Shown here: positions 37,753 through 60,414 of the stretch, one piece after another
How the letters are laid out: every line of letters starts with the position of its first letter
Position numbering within the stretch: position 1 is the stretch's first letter
Made by a program: the position numbers and the translations under genes
The notes under the pieces: model-generated
The model's database searches: none
Told to the model about the DNA's origin: nothing
Seen by the model: the letters and a program-made list of their open reading frames with translations, nothing else
NCBI GenBank assembly: GCA_020845895.1
Contig: JADLEX010000102.1
Location: 1-64,000 of the forward strand
Reading direction: 5' to 3'
Length of the DNA: 64,000 bases
Source of the DNA: Deltaproteobacteria bacterium
Lineage (GTDB): Bacteria; Lernaellota; Lernaellaia; JACKCT01

Positions 37753-40700
37753 ATGAACCTGCTGACGCAACAGCTCGACTTTCTGTTCGGCGTGCAAGGG
37801 CTGGCTTTCGTCGTCCTGGCCTCCGGCAACTGGGTGCTGGCCGGTCGGGAGAGCGCCCGACACCCATGGGACTGGTTCGGGCTGACGTCGTTTTTCTGGG
37901 GACTTTGCCAGTGGCAGGATCTCATCAGTTGGAGCATCGGCGACGGGCGGATGTACAACGTCGTCCGCGTGGTTTTGTCGTCGATCGCGTGGTTTTCTTT
38001 GATCGAGTTCAACCGGCGTGCCCGCGTCACCACGGGCGACCGGCCGGTCCCCATCTGGATCTACGCGGTGTTCGCGATTCCCGCTTTTTCGGGCTACGCA
38101 TTCGGGCCTTCGGCTCTGGACCTGACGTTTCACTTCGCCCTGGGCATCCCCGCGGGAATCTGGACGGTCTGGACGTTTCGGCGCATCGCAAACCGCGAGG
38201 CCGCGGGCCGGACGGCGCTCTGCGTCGCGATCGTCGCGTTCGCGATCTACATCCTGCTGGCCGTCATCGAGATTCCACTTTCGCCCTTCGACGAGGGCAT
38301 TCACGCACTTCGAGTGCAGCCCGATCCCGTTTCGATCCTCCTTCGTTACGCTTCGACCGGAGCGGCGGTGGTCGTCGCGGCGGCCATGTGGAAATTTTTG
38401 CGGTTCTCTTATTTTTCGGACGTTCGCGTTCGAAAAATTCTGCCATACGAAAACGCCCTCGTCTGGTCGGTTCCGCTGATTCTTGTCTTCGGCTGGATCG
38501 CGACAACGTACGCCGAAAAATCGATCGTAGCCCGCGAGATGGAACAACTTCAGGAAGCCGCGAACATCATTGCGGAAGAATCGGAATGGACGAACGTCTC
38601 CGAGCTCAACGCGTCCGAGGCCGATCTTGGCGGGCCGGTCTACGGCCGGATCAAGCAGCGGCTCACGTCGCTTCGAAGCGCCGTCAAACAGTGTCGATTC
38701 GTGTATCTCATGCGGCGTACCGGCGACCAAATCGTCCTCCTTGCCGACTCTGAACCCGCCGAATCGCCCGACTTCTCACCGCCCGGTCAAGTGTATGCCG
38801 AAGCCCCGAAGGCAATATTCCCGCTGTTCGAGACCGCGGGGCGTCTTTCGCTCCGGTATGAAGACCGATGGGGACGATTCGACTCGGCGTTCGTCTCGCT
38901 CGTCGATCGGCAAACCGGCGCCGTGGTCGCGGTCGTGGGAATCGACATCGAAGCCGAACGACTCGACCAAATGGCTCGTGAGGCTCGACTTCTGCCGCTG
39001 GTCGTCACGCTGCTCTTCGCCGGACTCGTCGTCACGTTCTTGATGGCAAAGCAGCACGATGCCCGGGCGCAGTGGCTTCTTGCACAGGCCGAGGAGTCTA
39101 TGACGGCCCTGCTCGACAATATCCCGGAAACCGCATGTCTCGTGGACATTCGCGGCCAGGTGCTGGCGTGCAACTCCGAGATGCGGCGACGGGAACTGAA
39201 GGACGTCGCCGACCACTCCGATGTAAATCTCCCTCGCCTCGTTCCAGCTTTTCGGGATTTCTGGACCGGGGAACAGTGGAGCGGACTCAAATCCGGCACT
39301 CCCGGAAGATTTCTCGTTCATGAGGAAGATCGAGAGATCGACTACCGCGTGCAGCCCGTCATCGACGAGGCCGCGCGCGTGAGTCGTCTGGCCATTCTCG
39401 GAATCGACCTGACCGAACGGCTGCGGATCGAAGAGGCGCTGCGCGCGGGTGAGGAGCGCTTTCGCGACATGGCGCTTTCGAGCGCGGACTGGATGTGGGA
39501 GGTCGACGCATCCGGCAAATACACCTTCGCATCCGGACGTGTCGAGGATGTGCTCGGGTATCGACCGGACGAGGTGATCGGCAAATCACCGTTCGAGTTC
39601 ATGGATGCAAGTGAGTCGAAACGGATTATCCCCATTTTTCAGGATATCGCCGACCGGCGCGCACCGATCGTCGATCTCGAGAACCGATGCCGACATCGCG
39701 ACGGCAGCGCGGTCGTCGTCGTTACGAACGGCGTTCCGATCGTGTCGGCAGACGGCGTATTGCTCGGTTATCGCGGCGTGGACAAGGACATCACCGCGCG
39801 AAAATTCGCCGAGCAAGCCCTACGTGACAGCGAGGAACGTTTCCGGGCGCTCGCCGAGAACTCGCCGGACGTCATCATGCGTTTCGACCGCGAAGGCCGG
39901 CATCTCTACGTCAATCCGGCCGTCAGGCGATTCGCCGGATTTGCGCCGGCGGACTTTGTCGGAAAGACGCACCGGGAAATGGGCTTCCCCGAGGATCTTT
40001 GCACTCTGTGGGAGCAGACGATTCGGCGCACGTTCGAGCAGGGAGGTATTGAACGCATCGAGTTCGATCTTCCCGACGGCGCGGCCATCGATTGGCTTCT
40101 CGTTCCGGAGTTCGACGCATCGGGAGCGGTCACGCATGTCATGACGTCGGCGCGCGACATCACGGCGAGAAAAATGGCGGAAGAAGCGCTGCGCACAACG
40201 CTGGACCGACTGGAACAAATGGTCGCCGAGCGAACGGAGAAGCTGCGCAAGGCGAATGAACAGCTCGAGGCGGAGGTCGCGGAGCGCCGCCGGATCGAGA
40301 TTGCACTGAGGCGAAGTGAAGAGCGCTTCCGTTCGCTCGTGGAAACGAATAACGACTGGATCTGCGAAATCACCGTTTCGGCCGAATTCACCTACAATAG
40401 CCCGCAAGTGGAACGCCTGCTGGGTTACGAGCCCGAGGAACTGATCGGCAAGCCGTTCGATCTCATCCTATCGCCGGACGAAGCCGCGCGGTTTCGTCGT
40501 CACTTCGACTCCGTGGCGAGCATCGGCGGGCGGATGAAAGGTTTCGAGTGGACGGCGATCTCGCGCGAGGGGCGCAACGTCGTCTTCGAAACGAATGCCG
40601 AGCCGTTTTTCGATGAGGGTCGGCTCTTGCGGGGATACCGCTCGATTCACCGTGATGTCACGGAACGCAAGGTCGCGGACACCGCGCTGCGCGACAGCGA

Positions 40701-41160
40701 AGAACGTTTTCGCCAGCTCTTCGAGGGCGTCACCGACGCGCTCTTCGTACACGAAATCCGCTCCGACGGATCGCCGGGGCGGTTCGTCGAGGTCAACGAT
40801 CAGGCGTGCCGTCGGTTGGGATATTCGCGGGAGGAGTTGCTGCGGATGGGTCCGCGCGAGATCGATGCGCCGCCGCCCGAAGGGAACGAACTCACCCCGA
40901 TCGGCCAGCAGTTGCGCGCGGGGCGGTTCCTCACTTTCGAGCAGGTTCACGTCACCCGGGACGGGCGACGTATTCCGGTCGAGATCAGTTCCCGCGTATT
41001 CGAGCTCGCCGGTCGATCGATGGTCATGTCGATCGCCCGTGACATCTCTCAGAGAAAAAATGCCGAGCGCGCCCTGCGGGAGAGCGAAGAGCGATTCCGC
41101 ATGCTTACCGAGGAGTCGCTCACCGGCGTGTTCCTGCAGAATGAGGGTCGGTTGACCTAG
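37753..41160 (+). CDS. Multi-PAS membrane sensor, N-terminal part, ended by in-frame TAG
   Basis: The visible frame encodes 1,135 residues before TAG. An N-terminal region with about seven hydrophobic helices (1-240) is followed by a helix, a likely extracytoplasmic sensing domain with Cache-like strands (about 270-415), a closing helix and a run of PAS domains. Each PAS is introduced by a helix such as LRDSEERFRALAEN, LRRSEERFRSLVET or LRESEERFRMLTEE. A coiled coil (MVAERTEKLRKANEQLEAEV) separates the third and fourth. The last PAS is cut after EGRLT. The next in-frame codons continue that same PAS and lead to GGDEF and HD-GYP domains, so this is one 1,594-codon gene interrupted by a single TAG. 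The ATG at 37753 was preferred over GTG at 37690. Confidence 0.85.
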   Translation: MNLLTQQLDFLFGVQGLAFVVLASGNWVLAGRESARHPWDWFGLTSFFWGLCQWQDLISWSIGDGRMYNVVRVVLSSIAWFSLIEFNRRARVTTGDRPVPIWIYAVFAIPAFSGYAFGPSALDLTFHFALGIPAGIWTVWTFRRIANREAAGRTALCVAIVAFAIYILLAVIEIPLSPFDEGIHALRVQPDPVSILLRYASTGAAVVVAAAMWKFLRFSYFSDVRVRKILPYENALVWSVPLILVFGWIATTYAEKSIVAREMEQLQEAANIIAEESEWTNVSELNASEADLGGPVYGRIKQRLTSLRSAVKQCRFVYLMRRTGDQIVLLADSEPAESPDFSPPGQVYAEAPKAIFPLFETAGRLSLRYEDRWGRFDSAFVSLVDRQTGAVVAVVGIDIEAERLDQMAREARLLPLVVTLLFAGLVVTFLMAKQHDARAQWLLAQAEESMTALLDNIPETACLVDIRGQVLACNSEMRRRELKDVADHSDVNLPRLVPAFRDFWTGEQWSGLKSGTPGRFLVHEEDREIDYRVQPVIDEAARVSRLAILGIDLTERLRIEEALRAGEERFRDMALSSADWMWEVDASGKYTFASGRVEDVLGYRPDEVIGKSPFEFMDASESKRIIPIFQDIADRRAPIVDLENRCRHRDGSAVVVVTNGVPIVSADGVLLGYRGVDKDITARKFAEQALRDSEERFRALAENSPDVIMRFDREGRHLYVNPAVRRFAGFAPADFVGKTHREMGFPEDLCTLWEQTIRRTFEQGGIERIEFDLPDGAAIDWLLVPEFDASGAVTHVMTSARDITARKMAEEALRTTLDRLEQMVAERTEKLRKANEQLEAEVAERRRIEIALRRSEERFRSLVETNNDWICEITVSAEFTYNSPQVERLLGYEPEELIGKPFDLILSPDEAARFRRHFDSVASIGGRMKGFEWTAISREGRNVVFETNAEPFFDEGRLLRGYRSIHRDVTERKVADTALRDSEERFRQLFEGVTDALFVHEIRSDGSPGRFVEVNDQACRRLGYSREELLRMGPREIDAPPPEGNELTPIGQQLRAGRFLTFEQVHVTRDGRRIPVEISSRVFELAGRSMVMSIARDISQRKNAERALRESEERFRMLTEESLTGVFLQNEGRLT
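41158..41160 (+). other. In-frame amber codon inside the sixth PAS domain
   Basis: TAG stands between ACC (Thr) and TCC (Ser) at codon 1136 of the 37753 frame. Related PAS sequences usually have Tyr or Val at this point before the next strand, so TAC or TAT to TAG is a one-base change. The flanking frame has no other stop or frameshift over 1,593 codons. Confidence 0.85.
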
Positions 41161-41181
41161 TCCAAGCGCCGGCTCGCCCAG

Positions 41182-42534
41182 ATGCTCGGATATCGGCCCG
41201 AGGACATCCCGGTCAAGCTCGGCACACAAGTTCTGGATTTTGTGCATCCGGGCGATCGCGACCAGGTTCGCGAAAATCTCGAAGAGCGCGCGCGGGGCGG
41301 AAATCCACCTCGCGAGTACGAGTGCCGCATGCTCGGAGCCGACGGGAAATCGGTCTGGGTCGCCATGCTCGTGTCCCAGATTTTCCACGACGGACTCTCC
41401 ACCACGATCGGCCACGTCGTGGATGTGACCGAACGTAAACGCGACGACGAACGGCTGCGTTTTCTGTCATATCACGATCCGCAAACCGGCCTGCGGAACC
41501 GCACCTTCTTCGAGGAATTGATGGAGCGCTACTCCAATGGCGAGCGGATGCCGGGACCGGTCTCCATCGTCGTCGCCGACATCGACGGGCTCAAGGTGGT
41601 GAATGACACCTTCGGTCACCGCGCCGGGGACGAACACATCGCCACCGTCGCGCGCATGCTCGCCGATACCTTCAACGGGACGAACGAGGTGTGCCGGGTC
41701 GGCGGCGACGAGTTCTGCGTCGTCATGCCGGACACGCCGGTCGACCTCGTCAGTCTTCGCGTGACGGAGGTGCTGGAACGCGTCAAGCGCTTCAACTCGC
41801 GGTCGCCGCGCATCCCGATCAGCATCTCGATCGGTCACTCGACGTCGCACGGCGCGCACGAGAGCGTCTTCGAGATCTACCAGCGCGCCGACGACAACAT
41901 GTATCAATACAAGCTCACCCAGATCGAGAGCCCGAAGAGCCGCGTCATCGACATCCTGCTCATGGCGCTCGCCGAACGCGACTTCGTCCTCCAGGGGCAT
42001 GTCGAGCGGATGGTGCACATGGTGGGGCGCATGGCGGAGTTGGTGGGTCTTCCGGATCACCGACGGCGGGATCTGATCCTGTTCGCGCGGGTCCACGATC
42101 TGGGCAAGGTCGGGATTCCCGACGAAATTCTCTTCAAACCGTCGGTCCTGACGCCCGAGGAGTACGCGAAGATCAAGATGCACGTTCAGATCGGTCACAA
42201 GATCGCCAGCCGTTCGCGGGAACTCGCGCATATCGCGAATCTCGTGCTGCATCACCATGAGTTTTGGGACGGCAACGGATACCCGAACCGGCTTCGCGGC
42301 GAGGAGATTCCCCTCGAATGTCGGATCCTCGCCATCGTGGACGCTTACGATGCGATGACGCAGACGAGGCCGTACAGCGCCGGTCGGACACACGACGAGG
42401 CGCTCGACGAGCTGCGCCGCTGCTCCGGACGGCAGTTCGACCCGCGATTGGTGGACGTGTTCATCGAGATGTTGCGGACCATGCCGACGCCGACGCCACC
42501 GCCGGAGGTCGGCGAAGGGCATATCGTGAACTGA
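41182..42534 (+). CDS. GGDEF plus HD-GYP output half of the amber-interrupted sensor
   Basis: These 450 residues continue the interrupted frame: the end of a PAS domain (LGYRPEDI, TIGHVVDVTERKR), then a diguanylate cyclase domain (VADIDGLKVVNDTFGHRAGD and an intact GGDEF in RVGGDEFCVVMP). An HD-GYP c-di-GMP phosphodiesterase domain follows (HDLGKVGIPDEI, HHHEFWDGNGYP, DAYDAMTQ). Both active sites look complete. Independent translation would need the ATG at 41182, which has no ribosome-binding site and would begin in mid-PAS, so it is more likely the C-terminus of the 37753 product. It would control c-di-GMP levels according to the upstream sensor domains. Confidence 0.88.
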   Translation: MLGYRPEDIPVKLGTQVLDFVHPGDRDQVRENLEERARGGNPPREYECRMLGADGKSVWVAMLVSQIFHDGLSTTIGHVVDVTERKRDDERLRFLSYHDPQTGLRNRTFFEELMERYSNGERMPGPVSIVVADIDGLKVVNDTFGHRAGDEHIATVARMLADTFNGTNEVCRVGGDEFCVVMPDTPVDLVSLRVTEVLERVKRFNSRSPRIPISISIGHSTSHGAHESVFEIYQRADDNMYQYKLTQIESPKSRVIDILLMALAERDFVLQGHVERMVHMVGRMAELVGLPDHRRRDLILFARVHDLGKVGIPDEILFKPSVLTPEEYAKIKMHVQIGHKIASRSRELAHIANLVLHHHEFWDGNGYPNRLRGEEIPLECRILAIVDAYDAMTQTRPYSAGRTHDEALDELRRCSGRQFDPRLVDVFIEMLRTMPTPTPPPEVGEGHIVN

Positions 42535-58548: not shown

Positions 58549-58653
58549 ATGAAACGTGCCCTCGTCATGGTTTTGGCTTTGGCCGCGGTTTTGGCGATTG
58601 CCGCCGGCAGTTTCGCCGACTGGGAACTGAAGCAGGTCGGCGGCATCACGTAG
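58549..58653 (+). CDS. Signal-peptide part of the BNR/PKD protein, ended by in-frame TAG
   Basis: These 34 codons encode a typical signal peptide (MKRALVMVLALAAVLAIAAG, cut near SFA) and the first mature residues DWELKQVGGIT, then TAG at 58651-58653. The frame continues without another stop through PSQLYKVWAIDRNHLYVVG into the BNR repeats, so this is the N-terminus of the 58711 product. The mature start WELKQVGG resembles the first strand of a BNR propeller. Without read-through the peptide would be useless, and the rest would lack an export signal. Confidence 0.8.
   Translation: MKRALVMVLALAAVLAIAAGSFADWELKQVGGIT
58651..58653 (+). other. In-frame amber codon just after the signal peptide
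   Basis: TAG lies between ACG (Thr) and CCG (Pro) at codon 35 of the 58549 frame. The downstream frame has no stop for 586 codons. This is the second such interruption in the window, and again the codon follows a Thr codon. Confidence 0.85.
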
Positions 58654-58710
58654 CCGAGCCAGCTCTACAAGGTCTGGGCGATCGACCGCAACCATCTCTA
58701 CGTCGTCGGG

Positions 58711-60414
58711 ATGGGTTTCGACGGCCTGTTCGACGTGTTCAACGAGCACCTGATCCAGCGGAGCACCGACGGCGGCGACACGCTGGAACCCCTGTTCACC
58801 AAGAACATCAACCCGTTCTCCGGCGGCCTTTGCAACTCGTTTTACGCGGCATTCGATCTGCACTTCGACGATCTGTACGAGGGCATGGTGGTCGGCGCGT
58901 GGCACAACAACGAGTCGAACTGTCTGTTGATCTACGAGTCGAACTGGATCGCGAAGACGACGAACGCGGGCGCGGACTGGACCGAATACACGCCGGCGCC
59001 GATCTACGAGGATCACCAGCTCAACGCCCTCGACATTCACGACAGCGGCGTCGGCTTCGCCGTGGGCGACGCCATGAACGTGTGGAAGACCGCGAATGGC
59101 GGCGACACCTGGACGATCTCGAACAATGTGCCGTCGGTGTGGGGCAACGAAGCGCCGCTCCATGACGTGGATGTCGTGGACGAGGATCTCATCTACGTCA
59201 CGTCGGAAATGTTCATCGACGAGATCACGGACGATGACACGGAATTCGAGGAAGATTTTGACGGCGATGTGAACGGCATCCAGGGCGAGCTCCTGCGCAG
59301 CACCAACGGAGGGCAGTCTTGGGAGAGCCTGTTGAGCGACGCGAATCTGGGTTTTCATCAGGTCCAGTTCATCGACGCGTCGCGCGGCTGGTTGCTGGTT
59401 ACGAACGAGGACGCCGAGGTCACGCAGATTCGTTACACCACCAACGGCGCGGCGACGTGGAACAACGGGACGCTCCCGACGATCTCCGGCATCGGAGCGC
59501 CGGGAAGCGGCTACGTCATCGGCGCGTTTCAGATGCTCGACGCCGATATCGGCTGGGCGGTCGGCGGCAGCGACTACGACAACGATCTTGTGATCCTTCG
59601 AACGACCAATGGCGGGGTGACCTGGCAGGCTGATCCGCTCCGAGGAGCGGGGCAACTCTATTCGATTCATATGGCCAACGAGCGCGTGGGTTTTGCCGTC
59701 GGATCGCGCAAGGTAGTTGTGGGCTTTTATGAACCGGGCGATTTTGCGCCGATCGCCGACGCGGGTCCGGACCAGACGGTTCCAGTGGGAACGAACGTGC
59801 ACCTGGACGGCAGCGGCAGCTACGATCCGGACGGCGATCCGCTCACCTACCAGTGGACGCAGCTCTCGGGGCCGAACATCACCCTGGTGACGGACACGAG
59901 CGAGAGCCCGACGTTTGACGCCGACCAGGTCGGTACCATCACGATCCGCCTGGTCGTCGCCGATTACGACATGAGTTCCGCGCCGGACTCGGTGACGATC
60001 GAGGTTGTTGATGAGACGGACGACGACACCGACGACGATGTCGACGACGACTCCGACGATGACTCGGACGACGACTCGGACGACGACGACGATGACGACG
60101 ATTGGATTCCGGACGACGACGAAGACGATGACGGGGACGATGACTCGCCCTTCGACTGCCGGTCGCTCATGTCGATGCTCTACGATGTGTGCGACGCGTT
60201 TCTGACCGATTACGAGACACGCTTCGACGCCGAAAACGCTTGCGATGAAGAGACCGAACCGTGGGATTGCGCGGTCGAGTGCCGCGCGAACAACAGCGAG
60301 TGCGACGGGCTCTTCGAGTGTCTCGAGGATGAGTGCGACGTCGACGTCTCGCGAAACAAGATCGAAGAAGATACCGACGGCGGCGATATTTCGGGCGGAT
60401 GCAGCGCGTTTTAG
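58711..60414 (+). CDS. BNR-repeat / PKD-like / Asp-linker / Cys-rich secreted protein (main part)
   Basis: The frame downstream of the amber codon (first ATG here) encodes 567 residues. It holds at least six BNR/Ycf48-like repeats (RSTDGGDTLEPL, KTTNAGADWTEYT, KTANGGDTWTIS, RSTNGGQSWESLL, RTTNGGVTWQADP and one weaker), then a PKD/REJ-like domain (PIADAGPDQTVPVGTNVHLD). An Asp-rich linker follows (DDDTDDDVDDDSDDD and on), and then a C-terminal domain with nine Cys. The layout suggests a surface-exposed propeller protein with a flexible linker and a disulfide-rich end domain, possibly an anchor. It lacks a signal peptide unless joined to the 58549 segment. Its normal stop is TAG. Confidence 0.85.
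   Translation: MGFDGLFDVFNEHLIQRSTDGGDTLEPLFTKNINPFSGGLCNSFYAAFDLHFDDLYEGMVVGAWHNNESNCLLIYESNWIAKTTNAGADWTEYTPAPIYEDHQLNALDIHDSGVGFAVGDAMNVWKTANGGDTWTISNNVPSVWGNEAPLHDVDVVDEDLIYVTSEMFIDEITDDDTEFEEDFDGDVNGIQGELLRSTNGGQSWESLLSDANLGFHQVQFIDASRGWLLVTNEDAEVTQIRYTTNGAATWNNGTLPTISGIGAPGSGYVIGAFQMLDADIGWAVGGSDYDNDLVILRTTNGGVTWQADPLRGAGQLYSIHMANERVGFAVGSRKVVVGFYEPGDFAPIADAGPDQTVPVGTNVHLDGSGSYDPDGDPLTYQWTQLSGPNITLVTDTSESPTFDADQVGTITIRLVVADYDMSSAPDSVTIEVVDETDDDTDDDVDDDSDDDSDDDSDDDDDDDDWIPDDDEDDDGDDDSPFDCRSLMSMLYDVCDAFLTDYETRFDAENACDEETEPWDCAVECRANNSECDGLFECLEDECDVDVSRNKIEEDTDGGDISGGCSAF
60019..60144 (+). repeat. Asp-rich coding microrepeat (secreted-protein linker)
   Basis: Tandem GAC/GAT codons interrupted by ACC, GTC, TCC, TCG or GGG encode the Asp linker between the PKD-like and Cys-rich domains. 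The pattern matches the linker of the lipoprotein at 9.2-10.5 kb. Confidence 0.85.

Follow-up and report, generated by a model that had tools for sequence, protein, structure and literature searches.

Lone in-frame stop codons are widespread in bacterial genes, and some of them have been argued to be read through, on the criteria that the stop is common to two or more genomes and that dN/dS is below 1 (Belinky et al., 2021; PMC7918605). The gene described here, at positions 37753–42534, resembles these cases in that a single nonsense codon lies in an otherwise open, domain-complete frame. Applied to the stop at 41158, these criteria would need an orthologue: in 60 relatives, in seven genomes of the phylum and among the matches in a collection of genome contigs, partial PAS or GGDEF-HD-GYP homologues were found and a whole-gene orthologue was not. 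In pyrrolysine and other UAG recoding systems, UAG likewise lies within open frames; by contrast, here the searches described below found neither PylS nor a CUA tRNA, the residues replaced vary, and UAG is still a regular stop. Once its stop is read through, the gene has the same architecture, motifs and domain order as the multi-PAS GGDEF/HD-GYP c-di-GMP enzymes (Pfam PF00990 and PF13487 with PAS), from which it differs in being broken in the last PAS.

The window, i.e., the whole stretch of DNA that was analyzed, comprises 64,000 nucleotides of a draft genome (4.98 Mb in 171 contigs, 99.5% complete). Translation of the window gives 1,594 symbols for the frame 37753–42534 with one internal stop, the TAG at 41158–41160 (codon 1136, plus strand), confirming an earlier note on this DNA that had called the frame intact save for this codon; the remaining 1,593 codons are open, and no second lesion is seen among them. 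The upstream ORF (37753–41160, plus strand) encodes an N-terminal membrane region, followed by an extracytoplasmic region, five whole PAS units and the first part of a sixth, and ends at the amber codon. Its Pfam matches are to PAS-type domains only (PAS_9, PAS_4, PAS and PAS_3), which bears out the claim that sensing domains alone precede the stop. The sixth PAS unit (41074–41430, plus strand), supported by homologue alignment and by a 64-bit match to sensory_box (TIGR00229) when a residue stands in for the stop, is broken about 29 residues in; six PAS-linker repeats are readable in the translation, and the stop had been placed correctly inside the last of them. The diguanylate cyclase and phosphodiesterase domains described as intact downstream are indeed so by Pfam and motif checks, and a PAS remnant precedes them: the GGDEF domain (41470–41919, plus strand) retains its GGDEF motif, and the HD-GYP domain (41962–42450, plus strand; Pfam HD_5/HD) retains its HD and HH..DGxGYP motifs. 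Reading past codon 1136 joins the PAS, GGDEF and HD-GYP domains into one unbroken architecture. The 457 codons past the TAG would be open by chance with a probability of ~1e-6, computed for this base composition, and the coding signature runs on across the stop, with high codon-position GC and a high coding score before and after it; together, these observations place the interrupted frame beyond chance.

Which residue the TAG replaces can be read from alignments: this site is occupied in related PAS domains by Phe or Tyr, sometimes by Glu or another residue, and Val is usual one position later. The earlier expectation of Tyr or Val is thus upheld for Tyr, since the nearest PAS homologues have Phe or Tyr here, and fails for Val, which belongs to the next position. 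The protein's other PAS units have Tyr, Phe, Tyr and Glu at the equivalent site. The closest PAS homologues read F-V-N where the 37753–42534 gene reads stop-Ser-Lys, so that not only the stop but also the Ser after it departs from the norm, a point in favor of a consensus or assembly error as the origin of the TAG, in which case the gene of the cell itself would be intact. Either one miscalled base or two compensating one-base shifts would suffice. The sequence TAGTCCAAG equals TACGTCAAG, which encodes Tyr-Val-Lys and comes near the usual F/Y-V-N, with one C displaced by three bases; since the two differ by this one moved C, a local consensus error could explain both odd residues. The draft state of the genome, with its 171 contigs, and the otherwise lesion-free 1,593 codons also speak for an error. 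However, two indels falling so close together, inside four bases, would be improbable, the interruptions found in this genome are scattered across several contigs, and one of them, in an AlkB-like gene, resembles an ordinary G-to-A transition when compared with the Trp codon of relatives. We consider an error unlikely; it ranks second, after a real recent nonsense mutation, which is the most likely origin of the stop.

The TAG at 41158–41160 is probably one ordinary nonsense lesion, which has hit a formerly intact gene for a six-PAS, GGDEF, HD-GYP receptor; its likeliest form is a point mutation that arose recently in the lineage sampled. A recent mutation explains the otherwise clean frame. 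The earlier note had reasoned that a decaying gene should carry further lesions; this argument proves weak, because a random substitution in this gene has only a 2.9–3.2% chance of creating a stop, and even odds of a second stop need 21–24 substitutions, or ~0.5% divergence. With stops so rare among substitutions, the absence of further lesions is weak evidence for function. The genome also encodes a paralogue (C110) that is 53% identical over the GGDEF-HD-GYP part and uninterrupted, and its other matches to the PAS6-GGDEF-HD-GYP part, among the matches listed, have no internal stops. Given these other uninterrupted HD-GYP proteins, of which C110 is the nearest, loss of the 37753–42534 copy may cost little.

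In a cell carrying the nonsense mutation, translation would end in PAS6, and the main product would be a membrane-bound PAS sensor without output. Some re-initiation may take place at the ATG at 41182, 21 nt past the stop and the first ATG downstream of it, which opens an ORF of 450 aa (41182–42534, plus strand; ORF translation and Pfam) comprising the rest of PAS6, GGDEF and HD-GYP; the candidate product would be a GGDEF and HD-GYP protein without the start of PAS6. A clear Shine-Dalgarno sequence was not found in front of this ATG. Low-level misreading of UAG would be another possible source of a little GGDEF-HD-GYP protein. A bolder proposal makes the misreading functional: leaky read-through would yield mostly truncated sensor and a little full-length enzyme, in line with published reports, from across the bacteria, of lone in-frame stops set in sequence under purifying selection (Belinky et al., 2021; PMC7918605) and with the intact motifs of the downstream domains. 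Yet intact motifs are predicted equally by a recent mutation, the RNA 3' of the stop at 41158–41160 shows no structure beyond that of shuffled sequences (z = -0.5 and -0.9), and the searches for a CUA tRNA found none, making a functional leak very unlikely. The earlier note had also envisaged that low-level read-through would leave most of the product as a sensor without output; nothing was found in support of this as a regulated state.

The 37753–42534 gene is one of several nonsense-interrupted genes in this draft genome. Interruptions were sought in 2.1 Mb (42% of the genome, ~1,550 genes), using codon and dicodon scores for gene finding; stops with a strong same-frame coding signal on both sides were retained and the candidates were then read by eye. 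Besides the 41158 site, the scanned 2.1 Mb contains about six likely lone in-frame TAGs, two lone TGAs and at least one frameshift, the count of lone stops being approximate and the calling of real candidates partly a matter of the eye. Orthologues of other interrupted genes of this genome are uninterrupted in relatives. In-frame pairs at L164:3876, L226:9709, L153:6409, L200:19603, L231:2212, L210:7399 and L107:16947 were rejected, their translation showing normal gene ends beside the next gene.

One of the additional TAGs lies in the window itself and was overlooked in the earlier note. It is a lesion of the same class and occupies positions 58651–58653, codon 35 from the ATG, in an otherwise open gene for a secreted repeat protein with an Asp-rich linker (58549–60414, plus strand); the nearest homologue, in a genome of the same family, is uninterrupted, and at the TAG site a paralogue from the genome itself carries Asp. 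A second (L047:1433, C5) interrupts a GH84 beta-N-acetylglucosaminidase domain midway, where the Pfam NAGidase match extends across the stop and the residue aligned with it in solved structures is Tyr; this contig, 18 kb long, carries a further lone TAG (L047:6313, C5). In an AlkB-like monooxygenase gene (L204:10192, C82, minus strand), the TAG site is TGG (Trp) in two genomes of the same family and Phe in solved structures, and a single frameshift interrupts a membrane protein gene in the same stretch (L204, ~16593, C82, minus strand). A predicted lipoprotein that is conserved across the phylum has, in this genome, a lone TAG just past its Asp-rich linker (L056:8538, C120), where relatives have Trp (one), Tyr (four) or Phe (one); the TAG in an MtnA-like stretch close to the end of a contig (C92, 253) aligns with Val or His in solved structures. 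The two lone TGAs interrupt genes for a TPR protein (C36, 10782) and a response regulator (C95, 4838). Many predicted lipoproteins in this genome, on several contigs (e.g., L048, L056, L195 and L220), share a recurrent feature: behind the signal sequence lies a long linker rich in Asp (DDDD).

This mixture of TAG, TGA and frameshift fits a background of random single-base nonsense mutation in a draft genome. Genome codon usage predicts that TAG should make up 53–54% of single-base nonsense mutations; seven of the nine lone stops are TAG (41158 included), an excess that is not significant (binomial P ~0.14). Nor is the residue replaced by an internal UAG uniform: it is Tyr in GH84, Trp in AlkB, Trp, Tyr or Phe in the C120 lipoprotein, Phe or Tyr in the PAS domain and, judging from the paralogue, Asp in the 58651 gene. 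An early reading, that every amber site replaces Tyr, was dropped because the same-family AlkB orthologues have Trp.

The same sites can be viewed as the footprint of a genome-encoded UAG suppressor, or of partial reassignment of UAG to Tyr, Trp or pyrrolysine, that makes UAG tolerable in several genes. The tally of lone TAGs, about seven in the scanned 42%, would suit such a suppressor, as would the residues at four of the six assessable sites, which are aromatic (Tyr/Trp/Phe) against ~28% expected from Tyr plus Trp (P ~0.06 in a post hoc comparison); that the replaced residues vary among Trp, Tyr and Asp would not. TAG, moreover, behaves as an ordinary terminator. The 1,500 complete genes in the 2.1 Mb end in TGA (972), TAG (308) or TAA (220), and a tandem stop follows within ten codons in 12.8% of TAG-ended genes, compared with 16.3% for TGA and 15.7% for TAA; backup stops are thus no commoner behind TAG, giving no sign of general UAG read-through. 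RF1, at 534.8 bits and with no stop inside, is intact. The search for pylS proposed in the earlier note was run and did not find PylS: the best matches score 24–25 bits (top 25.3), far under the cut-off of 178.15 and as in control genomes without Pyl. Nor do any of the sites hint at selenocysteine encoded by UAG.

The search for a tRNA-CUA, proposed alongside it, likewise yielded none: not among the 40 tRNAs listed and typed (the genome has at least 40), not by ARAGORN in 42% of the genome, and not when the whole genome was matched to a pattern combining a CUA anticodon loop with a T-arm, where the single tRNA matched is tRNA-Arg UCU. The same kind of anticodon and T-arm pattern, applied to the whole genome, also missed tRNA-Tyr (GUA), so that a CUA tRNA could sit in an assembly gap, a point in favor of a suppressor. 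One further tRNA, tRNA-Leu CAG, is present beyond the 40 listed. Among the tRNAs listed and typed, tRNA-Gly UCC, tRNA-Thr UGU, tRNA-Ile GAU and tRNA-Ala UGC were not seen; their absence and that of tRNA-Tyr probably reflect assembly gaps or incomplete listing.

On this evidence, a suppressor or partial reassignment is very improbable. Much the same holds for its most specific version, in which a weak amber suppressor inserting an aromatic residue, Tyr most easily, lets the receptor, GH84, AlkB and lipoprotein genes, among others, keep their UAG at aromatic positions while UAG ends a fifth of genes: we give it scarcely any credence. Recoding of UAG in this genome is improbable. With about six other genes carrying a lone UAG in the 42% examined, no consistent residue among them and no decoding tRNA found in the searches above, ordinary recent mutation or sequencing error is the most likely cause, rather than new decoding. 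The explanations offered in the earlier note are therefore narrowed: a recent mutation and an assembly error keep their standing, whereas read-through, a suppressor tRNA and a recoded residue lose support, given the ordinary use of TAG as a stop, the intact RF1, the failure to find PylS or a CUA tRNA, the varied residues and the unremarkable RNA structure.

The 37753–42534 gene adds one more nonsense-interrupted gene of a draft genome to those on record, and as such matters little, but it shows how weakly a lone stop argues for recoding even when no further lesion accompanies it. Were the amber sites nevertheless read through, partial amber suppression would occur naturally in a phylum that has been little sampled, a finding of real interest. 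As a separate observation on the composition of the window, the tetranucleotide CTAG is depleted, with 10 occurrences against ~31 expected from the counts of CTA, TAG and TA, and the amber codon at 41158 falls within one of these few CTAGs.
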